Source of the DNA: Thiomonas bhubaneswarensis
GTDB taxonomy: Bacteria; Pseudomonadota; Gammaproteobacteria; Burkholderiales; Burkholderiaceae_C
Reading direction: 5' to 3'
Assembly: GCF_001418255.1 (NCBI RefSeq)
Contig: NZ_LIPV01000002.1
Span: 124,001 to 188,000, forward strand
Length of the DNA stretch: 64,000 nt
Shown in pieces: positions 58,753 through 64,000 of the stretch. Positions within the stretch are counted from its first letter, which is position 1; the number at the start of each line of letters is the position of its first letter. The notes beneath the pieces are model-generated. The model was not told the DNA's origin and did not search any database. It was given only the letters and a program-made list of their open reading frames with translations. The position numbers and the translations under genes are program-made.

Positions 58753-61700
58753 TCATCCCCGCCAGCCCGCCCCTTCGCGGCGGGCGCGGCCCAGGGCTTC
58801 GAGGGTGTCGAGGATGCGGGGCAAGCTCTTTTTCCACGGGCCGCGGCCTTTGAAGCGGGTGGCGATGTCGCTCTCGCCCAGCGGTTGGGGGCTGGCTGCG
58901 AGCAGGTCGGCCATGGCGCGCATCTGCTCGGGCAGGGTGGCGGGCCAGGGCTGGGCGGCAGGCTCGGCGCTGGATGCTACGAAGCTAGACCTGACCCCAT
59001 CCAACCCTTCCAGCCGGACTTGTGACGGCTGGGTGGTGGCGGTCTGCGGGTTCTGCAACGCCGGGCGCAGCCAGCGCACGGTGCCTGCGGCTTCTTCGGC
59101 GGCGCGGGCGTGGTTGAGGGCGAGCAGGCGGGTGAGCAGTTCGGTGCGGGTGGCGGCATCGGTGTCGCCCGCGGCGAGGTCGGCCCAGCCGTAGGCGGCG
59201 AGGACTGCGGCGTCGAGTTCGGCGTGCAGTTCGGCCAGCACGGCGACCAGGCCGAGCTGGTGCACGGCGCGCTCCTTGGCGGTGAGGGGGCGGCCTGCGC
59301 GCAGGGCGTCGAGCACGTTGTAGAGCGCGGTGAGGGTGAGGGCGTCGGGGTGGGCGGCGAGCACGCGCTTGCGGTGGGCGTCGATGGCTTCGGCCCGTTC
59401 GGCGATGCGCTGGCGCAGCGCGGGGGTGAGGCCGGTGTCGGCGTCGGGGAAGGGGAAGGTTTCGAAGCAGCGGGTTTTGACATAGACCGGATCGTTGCCG
59501 ACGCCGAGTCGGCTGCCCGTCGCCAGCGCCCATTCGACGTGCAGGCGGCTGGAGAGCGCGCCGAGGTAAAAGGCGTCGTCGAGGGCGATGGCGATGAGTT
59601 TGTTGTCGGGCAGGATGGCGACGTCAAGGAACTGGAAGGTGCGGTGCTTGGCGGTTTCGACGGTGGCAATGAAGCGCGGCAGACCGGCGAGTTGTTTGCG
59701 CAGTTTGGGATTGGTTTCACCGAAAAGCCACCATTTTTCGCGCCGACCAGCGCGGTTGTTCTGCTCGCGCTCGGGCTTCACTCGTTCGAGCAGCCATTGA
59801 TAGACGGCTGGGTAGCGGCTGCGCACCTGCTCGGCGTCGAGGCCGAAGAGGTCGATGACGAGCACGCCGCGCGGGGTGTCGGTGAGGTCGCGGCCGTTGC
59901 GGTAGGGGCGGATGCGCTGCTCCAGTCCCGGCTCGCGGCCCAGCCCGAGCGCGGCGGCCTGCTCGGGGGTGACGATGAAGCCAGACCCGAACAGTTGCAC
60001 GCCGCGGTTGCTCAAGCCGAGGTCAGCCTCCAGAGGGCGCGCCGACAGCAGGTTCGGTCCCACGGTCAGATCGGCATGAATCAGCCCGGTGTGCTCGCGC
60101 AGTTGCACCTGCATTTCGCCGTGCTCGCCGGGCACTTCGGCGGTGACGGTTTGCAGCCGCCCTGCGCCCGCGCCGGGGGCGGCCACGGTCATGGCGATGC
60201 GCACGGCGGCGCCGCTGGCGCTGTCCACCCAGGGGTGATCGGGAATGGCGTCAACGAGGTGTAAACCGTCTTGCAAGGCGCTTTGCACCACGCGGCGGTT
60301 GAAGGTCTGGCGCAGGCTGTTGGTGGTGATGAAGCCGAAGCGCCGGGCCTCGCCTGCGGCAACCTTGCGCGCGGCGGCGTGCCACCAGAACATGACGAAG
60401 TCGGCGCTGTCGGGCACCTCGGGCCAGACGGCGCGCAGCGCGTCCACATAGCCGTCGCCCAGGGCGCCGCGCATGGCGGCGGCGCCGATGAAGGGCGGGT
60501 TGCCGACGATGAACTCGGCCTGCGGCCAGTCGGCGCGGCGGGGCTGGTCGTAGGCCCATTGCGGCACTTGCGCGGCGGGGTCGGGCACGGGCTCGCCGGT
60601 AGCGGGGTGGGGGATGAAGCTGCGACCGTCCCAGCGGGTGCGCAACTGGCCGCGTTCGTCGAGCAGGGGGCGCTGGCTGGCCCAGGCGAGCACGGCGTCG
60701 CGGCAGACGATGTTGCCCCAGTCGTGCACCACGGGCTCGGCCACGGCGCGGTTGCCGCGGGTGCGGATGTGCCATTGCAGGTAGCCGATCCACAGCACGA
60801 GTTCGGCCAGGGCGGCGGCGCGGGCGTTGACTTCGATGCCGAGCAGTTGGCGCGGGGTGACGGTTTCGCCTTCGAGCGCGAGGCTGTCCTGCGTTTGCCC
60901 GAGGGCGGCGAGCTGGTTGAGCACTTCGCCTTCGAGGCGCTTCAAGTGCTCCAGGGTGACGTAGAGGAAGTTGCCGCTGCCGCAGGCGGGGTCGAGCACG
61001 CGCAGGGTGCACAGGCGGTGGTGAAAGCGGCGCAGTTCGGCGCGGGCGGCTTCCATTTTGGCTTCGCGCGCGCGGCCTTCGAGCTCGGCGGCTTCGTGCG
61101 CGAGCAGCAGCGCGGCGGCCTGGGCGTCGGCCCATTCGGCGCGCAGCGGCTCCATCACGGTGGGCAGCACCAGACGCTCGACGTAGGCGCGCGGGGTGTA
61201 GTGCGCGCCGAGGGCGTGGCGCTCGGCGGGGTCGAGGGCGCGCTCGAGCAGGGTGCCGAAGATGGCGGGCTCGACTTCGCGCCAGTTGGCGCGCGCGGCG
61301 GCCAGCAGCAAGTCCACCTGCTCGCGGGTGAGGGGCAGGGAGTAGGCGTCGTCGCTGGCGCCCTTGAACAGCTTGCCGTTGAAGCGCAGCACGGTCTGCG
61401 CCAGGGCGACGGAAAAGCCGCCGCGGTCCATGTCGGCCCACAGCGCGGCGAGCATGCGCTGGAGTGTGGCGGGGTCGTCGCAGTACTGGCGCAGCAGGCG
61501 GGCGAAGCTGCCTTCGCCGTCGGCACGGGGCAGCAGTTCCACGTCTTCGGCAAACATGGAGAACAGGCAGCGGGTGAGGTAGGCGGCAACGTGCTGCGGG
61601 GCGTGGCCGCTGGCTTCGAGGCTGCGGGCCAGCTCGGCCAGCCGGGCCGCAACCTCGCGGGTGACGCGGGCGCTGGCGCGGGCGGGGTCGAGCGAGAGCG

Positions 61701-62265
61701 GGTCGAGCCAGATGCGGCGCAGGGTGGCGCGCACCTCGGCGCGGGCGAGGTCGGCCAGAGCAATGCGGTGGCTGCGCGGATCGGGGAACGGGGTGTAGGT
61801 GGCGCCGCTGCGGGTGAACTCGGCATAGACCTCGATGAGCTGGCCGACATCGACCACAAGCAGGAAGGGCGGGCGCCCGGCGGCGGCAAGCTCGGCAGGT
61901 TCGAGCGCGCGGGCGTAGCCCTCGGCCTGGGCGCGGGCGCGCAGCAGGGCGTCGTCGAAGCGGCGGGTGTCGCTGGCGGCGCGCAGTTTCTTGGCTTCGA
62001 GCACGAAGCAGCCGCGCCGGTAGCAGTCGATGCGGCCGGGGCTGCTGCTGCCGTCGCCGTGACGAAAGGTGACGGGGCGCTCGAACATGTAGTCCTGCTC
62101 GGGCGTGGGGTGCGGCAAGGGCACGTCGAGCAGTTCGCACAGCTCGCGCACGAAGCTCTGCGCGGTGGAAAGCTCGGAGGCGGCGACGCCGCTCCAGCGG
62201 GCGATAAAGGCGGCGGCGCGGGCGTCGTCGGGATGGGCAGCGGCGGCGGTGGGCGGGGCGATCAT
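58753..62265 (-). CDS. MmeI-like single-chain restriction-methylation enzyme
   Basis: A 1170-residue protein. The N-terminal nuclease motif is Asp80-x9-Glu90-x-Lys92 ([16 protein letters not shown]), of PD-(D/E)xK type. The central N6-adenine methyltransferase has [12 protein letters not shown] at about 422-436 and IVGNPPFIG at about 584-594. Residues about 700-950 would hold the target-recognition region. This is the type IIL arrangement of MmeI (about 920 residues), longer here at the C-terminus. It would methylate and cut at the same specificity. It is a lone gene with no separate specificity or protector protein. A 24-nt repeat copy lies in its 3' part. Confidence 0.85.
58975..58998. repeat. 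Copy of rpoH-upstream repeat arm inside MmeI-like gene
   Basis: The 24 bases TGCTACGAAGCTAGACCTGA + CCCC are identical to 24 bases of the right arm of the palindrome at 62822-62883. In the reading frame they encode GVRSSFVAS near residues 1090-1098. No partner arm is nearby, so it is a half-element. Confidence 0.85.
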
Positions 62266-62380: not shown

Positions 62381-62836
62381 ATGCCAATCCACTCCTTGAA
62401 ACGCTTTGCCCCTCTTTTTCTGGCCCTGGCGCTGATTTCGGGCGTCGCGCAGGCGGCCACGCTCGAGCAGGCGTCGGCGCTGCTGGATGCCGGTCATTTG
62501 ACGCAGGCCGATCATGCGCTGGCGCAGGTGCTGGCAGACCAGCCGCATTCGGCTTCGGCCCACTATCTGGAAGCGCGGCTGCTGGCGGTCGAGGGCAAAT
62601 GGCCGCTTGCCGAGAAGGAACTGGAACTGGCGAAGCGGCTCGATCCCACCTTGAGCTTCGCACCCGCGGCGCAGTCGCAGGCGCTGGCCAACGAGGTGCT
62701 CAAACACCAGTGGAAGAACCCGGCCGGCTTTGCTGGCTACGGGCAGGCCGCGCTTGCGGCGCTGTTCGTGCTGATTTCGGGCTACCTGGTTGTCGGGGTG
62801 GTGCGCAACAAGCGTCGGCCTGGGGGTCAGGTCTAG
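62381..62836 (+). CDS. TPR-like secreted/membrane protein
   Basis: A 151-residue protein with a signal peptide (residues 1-25), TPR-like helices (ASALLDAGHLTQADHALAQV, ARLLAVEGKWPLAEKELELA) and a C-terminal membrane helix (about 124-143, ALAALFVLISGYLVVGVV). The final codons (GGQV) run into the left arm of the palindromic repeat at 62822, so the repeat appears to provide the current C-terminus. Function is unknown. Confidence 0.75.
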   Translation: MPIHSLKRFAPLFLALALISGVAQAATLEQASALLDAGHLTQADHALAQVLADQPHSASAHYLEARLLAVEGKWPLAEKELELAKRLDPTLSFAPAAQSQALANEVLKHQWKNPAGFAGYGQAALAALFVLISGYLVVGVVRNKRRPGGQV

Positions 62837-62883
62837 CTTCGTAGCATGGAGGGCATGGTGCTACGAAGCTAGACCTGACCCCC
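62822..62883. repeat. 25-bp perfect inverted repeat before rpoH
   Basis: Left arm at 62822-62846 and right arm at 62859-62883 are perfectly complementary (core GTCAGGTCTAGCTTCGTAGC), with a 12-nt loop TGGAGGGCATGG. The left arm covers the last 15 bases of the TPR gene. The right arm ends 19 bp before the CIRCE element. There is no U tract. It may be a mobile REP-like element or act as a terminator for the TPR gene. Confidence 0.9.
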
Positions 62884-62902
62884 ACCCGGGAACTTTCCGC
62901 CC

Positions 62903-62929
62903 TTAGCACTCTCTACTCGTGAGTGCTAA
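62903..62929. promoter_or_regulatory. CIRCE element (HrcA operator) upstream of rpoH
   Basis: TTAGCACTC-9 nt-GAGTGCTAA matches the CIRCE consensus perfectly in both arms and spacer length. It lies 28 bp before the rpoH ATG. CIRCE is bound by the HrcA repressor, so sigma-32 synthesis is probably under HrcA control here. No hrcA gene is in the window. Confidence 0.95.
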
Positions 62930-62957
62930 TATCGGCACGAACAGGAGGATTCCATCG

Positions 62958-63866
62958 ATGACCCACACCCCGTCAGCCGCACTTGCCCTGCGCCCGGCCC
63001 AGGTCGATGGCGCGTTTCCGCTCGCCCTGCCCAGCCTGGGCAATCTGGATGCCTACATCAGTGCCGTTAATCGCATGCCCATGCTCAGCGCGGAGGAAGA
63101 GGCGCGTCTGGCGCGCACCTGGCGCGAGCAGGGTGACAAGGACGCGGCGGGCAAGCTGGTGCTGTCGCACCTGCGGCTGGTGGTGTCCACGGCGCGGCAA
63201 TATCTGGGCTACGGCCTGCCGCATGCCGACCTGATTCAAGAGGGCAATATCGGTCTGATGAAGGCGGTCAAGCGCTTTGACCCCGAGCACGGCGTGCGGC
63301 TGGTGAGCTATGCGCTGCACTGGATCAAGGCCGAGATTCACGAATACATCCTGCGCAACTGGCGGCTGGTGAAGGTGGCCACGACCAAGGCGCAGCGCAA
63401 GCTGTTTTTCAACCTGCGCTCGATGAAGACGGCCAATGCCGGCATGAACGAGGCGCAGATTGACGAGATGGCGCAGGCGCTGTCGGTCAAGCGCGAAGAC
63501 GTGATCGAGATGGAAAGCCGCATGGGCGGCGCCGACATCGCGCTCGATCCCACTGTGGAAGATGGCGAGGAGAACTACGCGCCCATCGCCTACCTGGCCG
63601 ACACGACTCAAGAGCCGGTGGCCGTGCTCGAAGCGCGCAGCCACGACCGGCTGCAGGTCGAAGGGCTGGAGAGCGCGCTCGAACTGCTCGACCCGCGCAG
63701 CCGCGCCATCGTGGAGCAGCGCTGGCTTCAGGTGGCCGACGACGGCAGCGGCGGCAAGACCCTGCACGAACTGGCCGCCGAGTACGGCGTGTCGGCCGAG
63801 CGCATCCGCCAGATCGAGGTGGCAGCGATGAAGAAGATGCGCAAGGCGCTGGCCGAGTTTGCGTGA
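62958..63866 (+). CDS. rpoH: RNA polymerase sigma-32 factor
   Basis: A 302-residue heat-shock sigma factor. Region 2 is seen as LSHLRLVVSTARQYLGYGLP and QEGNIGLMKAVKRFDPEHGV, followed by the RpoH box (QRKLFFNLRSMK). Region 4 ends with LHELAAEYGVSAERIRQIEV. It directs RNA polymerase to heat-shock promoters. AGGAGGA lies upstream of the ATG at 62958; the CIRCE element precedes it. An intrinsic terminator follows the stop. Confidence 0.97.
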   Translation: MTHTPSAALALRPAQVDGAFPLALPSLGNLDAYISAVNRMPMLSAEEEARLARTWREQGDKDAAGKLVLSHLRLVVSTARQYLGYGLPHADLIQEGNIGLMKAVKRFDPEHGVRLVSYALHWIKAEIHEYILRNWRLVKVATTKAQRKLFFNLRSMKTANAGMNEAQIDEMAQALSVKREDVIEMESRMGGADIALDPTVEDGEENYAPIAYLADTTQEPVAVLEARSHDRLQVEGLESALELLDPRSRAIVEQRWLQVADDGSGGKTLHELAAEYGVSAERIRQIEVAAMKKMRKALAEFA

Positions 63867-63888: not shown

Positions 63889-63916
63889 AAAAAGCCCGTC
63901 CAAGACGGGCTTTTTT
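63889..63916 (+). terminator. Rho-independent terminator of rpoH
   Basis: GCCCGTC-CAA-GACGGGC is followed by six T and preceded by A5, a compact intrinsic terminator 23 bp after the rpoH stop. The A tract means it could also work from the opposite strand. After it, 63917-64000 shows no gene. Confidence 0.9.
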
Positions 63917-64000
63917 GTTGAGCACGGTACGGGACGGTGACGCCCGCGCTCGAGGCAATTTATCCCAAATTGTCCATTAGGCGGCGCTTCGCGCCTGCAC

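Follow-up and report, generated by a model that had tools for sequence, protein, structure and literature searches.

The rpoH locus and its control region

The window (the whole stretch of DNA analysed, 64,000 nucleotides) carries rpoH, which encodes sigma-32. Its product scores 401 bits against the rpoH_proteo equivalog model TIGR02392 (cut-off 323.1), contains the Pfam sigma-70 regions 1.2, 2 and 4, and comes from the single gene of the genome that lies above this cut-off. The nearest named relatives of this rpoH belong to the Burkholderiales, for example Roseateles, Comamonas, Ramlibacter and Paraburkholderia. On the 3' side of the gene, at 63890-63919, an inverted repeat (AAGCCCGTC/GACGGGCTT) is followed by T's and by eye resembles an intrinsic terminator. 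The gene directly upstream encodes a TPR protein, and two genes upstream, on the reverse strand (58753-62265), a 1170-aa protein has all four MmeI domains (N-terminal, helicase spacer, methyltransferase and target recognition), the composition of a type IIG restriction-modification enzyme. The features of the control region are collected in Table 1.

Table 1. Features at the rpoH locus, in positions of the window
Feature	Position	Strand	Remarks
TPR protein gene, 151 aa, upstream of rpoH	62381..62836	+	final codons and stop inside the palindrome
Perfect palindromic repeat, 26-bp stem, 64 nt	62821..62884	.	stops 4 nt short of the predicted sigma-E -35
Predicted -35, sigma-E (RpoE) type, GGAACTT	62889..62895	+	7/7 to consensus; same place in 13/13 genus genomes
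CIRCE, predicted HrcA operator	62903..62929	.	9-nt arms, 9-nt loop, perfect consensus; conserved before rpoH
Candidate -35 of a primary-sigma promoter, TTAGCA	62903..62908	+	left CIRCE arm; 4/6 to TTGACA; 18-nt spacer; weak
Predicted -10, sigma-E type, TCTAC	62912..62916	+	16 nt after the -35, inside the CIRCE loop
Predicted extended -10, primary sigma, TGC-TAATAT	62924..62932	+	right CIRCE arm plus TAT
Shine-Dalgarno of rpoH, AGGAGG	62943..62948	+	from the sequence
rpoH (sigma-32), 302 aa	62958..63866	+	ATG at 62958; TIGR02392 and NF005143 over cut-off

A consensus search of the window found a perfect CIRCE, TTAGCACTC-TCTACTCGT-GAGTGCTAA, with 0 mismatches and 28 nt before the rpoH start, where the original prediction had placed it. 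No second match turns up in the window when as many as 3 mismatches are allowed; of 100 dinucleotide shuffles of the window, none contained a CIRCE. The interval 62903-62957 consists of the CIRCE and the leader, its last base standing just before the rpoH start codon. Across the whole assembly (3.2 Mb, 23 contigs) there are two CIRCE sites at ≤3 mismatches, one before groES and one before rpoH. The original prediction was to be given up if the genome had no hrcA; one copy was found, encoding 339 aa (TIGR00331, 299 bits, cut-off 197.2). An RpoE orthologue is also encoded (TIGR02939, 272.6 bits, cut-off 236.15). By eye, no sigma-32 promoter for rpoH itself was seen near the CIRCE in the window. 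At groESL of this genome, which has the same kind of operator as rpoH, a sigma-32 type promoter (CTTGAAA...TATAA) precedes the CIRCE.

The CIRCE of rpoH across relatives, and its co-occurrence with hrcA

Within the genus, a CIRCE lies upstream of rpoH in 13/13 genomes. A set of 80 loci of rpoH relatives has it in 78 at ≤2 mismatches, the exceptions being one locus that ends at a contig edge (L077) and one without a CIRCE (L081). For the order we examined 69 of the 147 rows besides our own (29 loci given and 40 chosen, about one per family), and 65 of these 69 have a CIRCE before rpoH, 61 of them at ≤2 mismatches. In the wider class, sampled mostly at one genome per family, the count is 89/108 loci examined (≤3 mismatches), a set that excludes our own genome and G084 and from which 21 of 131 rpoH rows, nearly all of them the most divergent, were left out. 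Judged by this distribution of sequences, the arrangement is an old and widespread one, ordinary for the group to which this genome belongs; conservation across genus, order and class rules out that the CIRCE is a recent acquisition or peculiar to this genome. One locus of genome G193 (L399) has two tandem CIRCE-like sites before rpoH, the first of them imperfect.

We compared all 22 genomes lacking a CIRCE at rpoH with 26 of those that have one, the second rpoH copy of G215 being excluded. hrcA is present in 26/26 genomes with a CIRCE at rpoH vs 5/22 without (Fisher 6e-9, uncorrected for shared ancestry). The five genomes that encode hrcA and in which no CIRCE was found at rpoH count against the model that we favour below. 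With hrcA present here and the conserved CIRCE co-occurring with it, the proposed control of rpoH by HrcA, and through it the link to sigma-32, appears well supported.

The CIRCE-rpoH arrangement of this group was probably noticed earlier than in the present analysis. Permina and Gelfand surveyed the heat-shock regulons of beta-, gamma- and epsilon-proteobacteria in 2003, and their paper, to judge by its title, may well include the arrangement in these groups.

In Geobacter sulfurreducens, as given in excerpts of a 2004 study, a perfect CIRCE has already been reported, as a prediction, before rpoH at -51 from the start codon (PMC545781). As in the genome studied here, groESL also belongs to the HrcA regulon in that organism; unlike here, where groES and rpoH alone carry the site, hrcA-grpE-dnaKJ has a CIRCE as well, and the excerpted account does not describe a promoter overlap of the CIRCE at rpoH (PMC545781).

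A candidate primary-sigma promoter formed by the operator arms

An alignment of 79 rows (the window and 78 others) has almost no conservation upstream of the CIRCE; after the right arm, one base is skipped and then come A (96%) and T (100%). Among 245 pooled rpoH loci, from which any with >4 mismatches to CIRCE were excluded (>2 in the 80-locus set), AT follows the right arm in 206 and the T at +29 is kept in 235. In the groES set (34 sites, almost all of a single family), where the CIRCE follows a sigma-32 type promoter, 0/34 continue with AT; the right arm is followed by CAA, CAG, CAC, CGA or CGG in 34/34. Among the matches listed class-wide, in genomes with a located rpoH, 19 of 20 exact occurrences of CIRCE plus AT stand at rpoH. 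Contig 16 of G286 has an exact CIRCE followed by AT at 95824-95853, away from the located rpoH of that genome.

The mirror image, ATn before the CIRCE, is rare (4/156, and 4/89; class set), so the conserved AT/T is directional and no extended operator. A longer palindromic operator was ruled out for this reason and because AT is absent at groES. Membership of AT/T in the sigma-E promoter described below, or in the translation start, was likewise rejected, since both distances vary while AT/T stays with the CIRCE.

We infer that the conserved TGC-TAA-n-AT is the extended -10 of a primary-sigma promoter. In the window the pattern TGn-TAnnnT is matched by TGCTAATAT, and the left arm would provide a candidate -35. 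A two-hexamer sigma-70 scan (≥9/12 matches) of 62780-63000 reported nothing, which counts against this reading; an extended -10 form would dispense with a two-hexamer match. That the left arm drifts to TTGGCA was considered as evidence for the -35 and dropped, the groES set being almost wholly from one family and TTGGCA being common in distant families. The earlier concern that very little room was left for a promoter found no support: both predicted promoters lie over the operator and do not depend on room before the CIRCE.

A predicted sigma-E type promoter threaded through the operator

The second predicted promoter is of sigma-E type, its -10 falling within the CIRCE loop. The window has a single GGAACTT-N16-TC, with 0.17 occurrences expected by chance, which in a single window means little; the relatives appear to add weight. 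The fifth base of the window's TCTAC is C, whereas A is usual in relatives.

A sigma-E type -35 stands ≤45 nt before the CIRCE at 177/245 rpoH loci vs 55/733 control windows. The other 68/245 CIRCE loci have no such -35 within 45 nt, and they count against the model favoured below. At loci with the -35, TC follows 16 nt after it in 60/71 cases for the class, 38/50 for the order, 38/43 for the 80-locus set and 13/13 for the genus; TC at other spacings is seen in few cases, apart from those supplied by a CIRCE arm. With the -35 at -16/-17 from the CIRCE, A is found at +11 in 86/93 loci vs 31/152 others; at -14, TC is found at +9 in 20/20 vs 53/225; and at -12, TC is found at +11 in 27/28 vs 5/217. 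Where the -35 lies at -28 to -31 (Paraburkholderia, Cupriavidus), most printed rows have TCnAA just outside the CIRCE. Across relatives, the sigma-E -10 moves with the -35 and the 16-nt spacing is fixed. In the commonest register the TC comes from the CIRCE arm, leaving only the A at +11 independent.

A strict rule, GGAACTT (5/7)-N15..17-TCnnA, matches 154/245 rpoH loci, 9/733 control windows and 0/34 groES sites. Only 2/13 genomes of the genus match this rule, and the window, with its TCTAC, does not, both points against the favoured model. With the loose -35 rule, 8/34 groES sites match, probably because the GAAAC of the sigma-32 -35 resembles a sigma-E -35; the groES set was set aside as an unclean control for this element. 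A strict match within 300 nt is present in only 2/17 hrcA-less genomes, so the sigma-E promoter was not simply retained after CIRCE loss, a further point against that model.

The P3 promoter of E. coli rpoH is a known RpoE (sigma-E) promoter, according to excerpts of a published account (PMC8103513). In E. coli K-12 the same detector finds TGAACTT-N16-TCTGA before rpoH, so that the 16-nt spacing of the elements in the window is that of P3. Unlike the genome studied here, E. coli gives no hrcA match and has no CIRCE before rpoH (best 8 mismatches). SigE of Bordetella bronchiseptica drives in vitro transcription from the promoter region of rpoH (fam), according to the excerpted text of that study, making fam a betaproteobacterial rpoH with an RpoE-like promoter; in the same text HrcA and CIRCE have 0 occurrences (PMC3490749). 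The main text of a paper on sigma-E in Burkholderia pseudomallei does not mention rpoH (PMC4175613), and another paper, in excerpt, names HrcA and rpoH only separately (PMC3224663). In the open-licence literature searched, we did not find in print a CIRCE overlapping these two rpoH promoters.

HrcA might instead act by roadblock or occlusion of the sigma-E promoter alone, with AT/T serving as initially transcribed sequence or as an HrcA contact made only at rpoH. The weakness of the primary-sigma -35 would fit such a scheme, as would the in vitro support in Bordetella for a sigma-E promoter of rpoH, known from excerpts (PMC3490749). Against it, AT/T is fixed relative to the CIRCE while the sigma-E register varies (-12 to -43); a sigma-E start would shift with that register, so AT/T is not tied to it. 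The lack of AT/T at the groES CIRCEs and the rarity of its mirror image (4/156) argue in the same direction. Genome G252 (L426), which lacks hrcA, also speaks against sigma-E alone, as an illustration only, being one genome: its CIRCE right arm is short of one base (GATGCTAAAAT) and the palindrome is broken, and yet its rpoH retains TTGGCA-N17-TGCTAAAAT despite the decayed CIRCE, together with TTGGCACTC and the sigma-E spacing, in TGAACTT-N16-TCTTA. We regard control through the sigma-E promoter alone as unlikely, and prefer two promoters beneath one operator.

A hairpin repeat beside the conserved block

The palindromic repeat of the original prediction is present; its end lies 19 positions ahead of the CIRCE, with 18 nt separating the two. 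Its 26-nt arms (62821-62846 and 62859-62884) are 100% complementary and enclose a 12-nt loop, with a DNA fold of -33.6 kcal/mol (z -10.9). The arm is a dispersed repeat with 11 sites in its own genome and matches in 12/13 genus genomes (≤2 mismatches), the copies occurring singly or as inverted pairs, and is perhaps a REP-like or MITE-like element. One copy, with 1 mismatch in 25 nt, lies at 58975-58999 on the reverse strand, near the end of the frame of the MmeI-like gene. At rpoH the hairpin is found in 1/13 genus genomes, here only.

The upstream region was compared, as had been proposed, with that of 12 congeners without the repeat at rpoH. All 12 align with the window from 62887-62889 onward (to 62960 in 10 of them), a starting point 2-4 nt beyond the hairpin, so that the core block is undisturbed. 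One congener, G008, matches the window as far as 62819 and resumes at 62887; in place of the hairpin it has about 110 nt that differ. It is also the only one of the 12 in which the TPR gene adjoins rpoH, its homologue matching residues 7-146 of the 151 only.

The best explanation is that the hairpin is a later, genome-specific repeat, which would have spared the predicted operator and promoters. The original prediction had raised the question of whether the repeat altered rpoH control. The core block is unchanged from a point just past the hairpin end at 62884; an effect through an upstream activating sequence or through TPR-gene read-through may exist. A stronger version, in which the hairpin rewired rpoH in this genome and made its control unlike that of the congeners, either because transcription from the TPR gene no longer reads through or because an activating element upstream was replaced, seems to us decidedly improbable. 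It has in its favour a perfect stem of such stability ending so near the predicted -35, and a repeat that is unique to this rpoH and replaces sequence relative to G008. It has against it the conservation of the block from 62887 onward, the lack of a T-run after the hairpin and a scan of 62780-63000 that found no terminator-like site. With the same two negative results, the hairpin as an intrinsic terminator was rejected as unproven.

The comparison with congeners also bears on the view that the CIRCE alone matters, the promoter-like sequences being by-products of the CIRCE and chance, and rpoH being transcribed from further upstream, for example with the TPR gene. In its favour, every CIRCE contains TGCTAA, chance alone would give 0.17 occurrences of GGAACTT-N16-TC per window, and the TPR gene stands beside rpoH in just G008 of the 12 congeners. 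The co-movement of -35 and -10, the comparison with control windows and the difference from groES sites oppose it, as does the upstream homology, which in 12/12 congeners begins at the predicted -35. We consider this view very improbable, and return to an operator that overlaps two promoters.

A model of rpoH control

Taken together as predictions from sequence, these features probably describe a three-input promoter, in which the rpoH control region responds to housekeeping transcription, envelope stress and HrcA, with the HrcA operator lying over two promoters. In other bacteria HrcA is kept active by free GroEL. In unstressed cells, HrcA on the CIRCE would cover both the weak primary-sigma promoter and the sigma-E promoter. 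Misfolded cytoplasmic protein would draw GroEL away and HrcA would release the CIRCE, leading to joint derepression of rpoH and groESL, the sole two CIRCE genes here. Envelope stress would bring additional transcription of rpoH by sigma-E (RpoE). The sigma-32 made would then act at the promoters of its regulon, among them the sigma-32 type promoter of groESL, and the new GroEL would re-arm HrcA, so that sigma-32 synthesis would be subject to feedback.

The textbook picture of sigma-32 control, mostly post-transcriptional and proteolytic, was drawn from E. coli, an organism without HrcA. For the Gammaproteobacteria with hrcA, including the former Betaproteobacteria, the ancestral rpoH region may have been a compact three-input element, its operator arms forming the housekeeping -35 and extended -10 and a sigma-E promoter with 16-nt spacing threaded through in several registers, and E. 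coli P3 may be what remained after loss of HrcA and CIRCE; we are evenly divided on this history. If the model is true, the operator is an unusual one whose own arms double as promoter elements. Most of the relatives examined would then also place sigma-32 synthesis under a GroEL-sensed repressor that acts over both promoters, and the groESL and rpoH circuits would share one thermostat. In this genome the arrangement is the ordinary one for its group, left intact by the hairpin.
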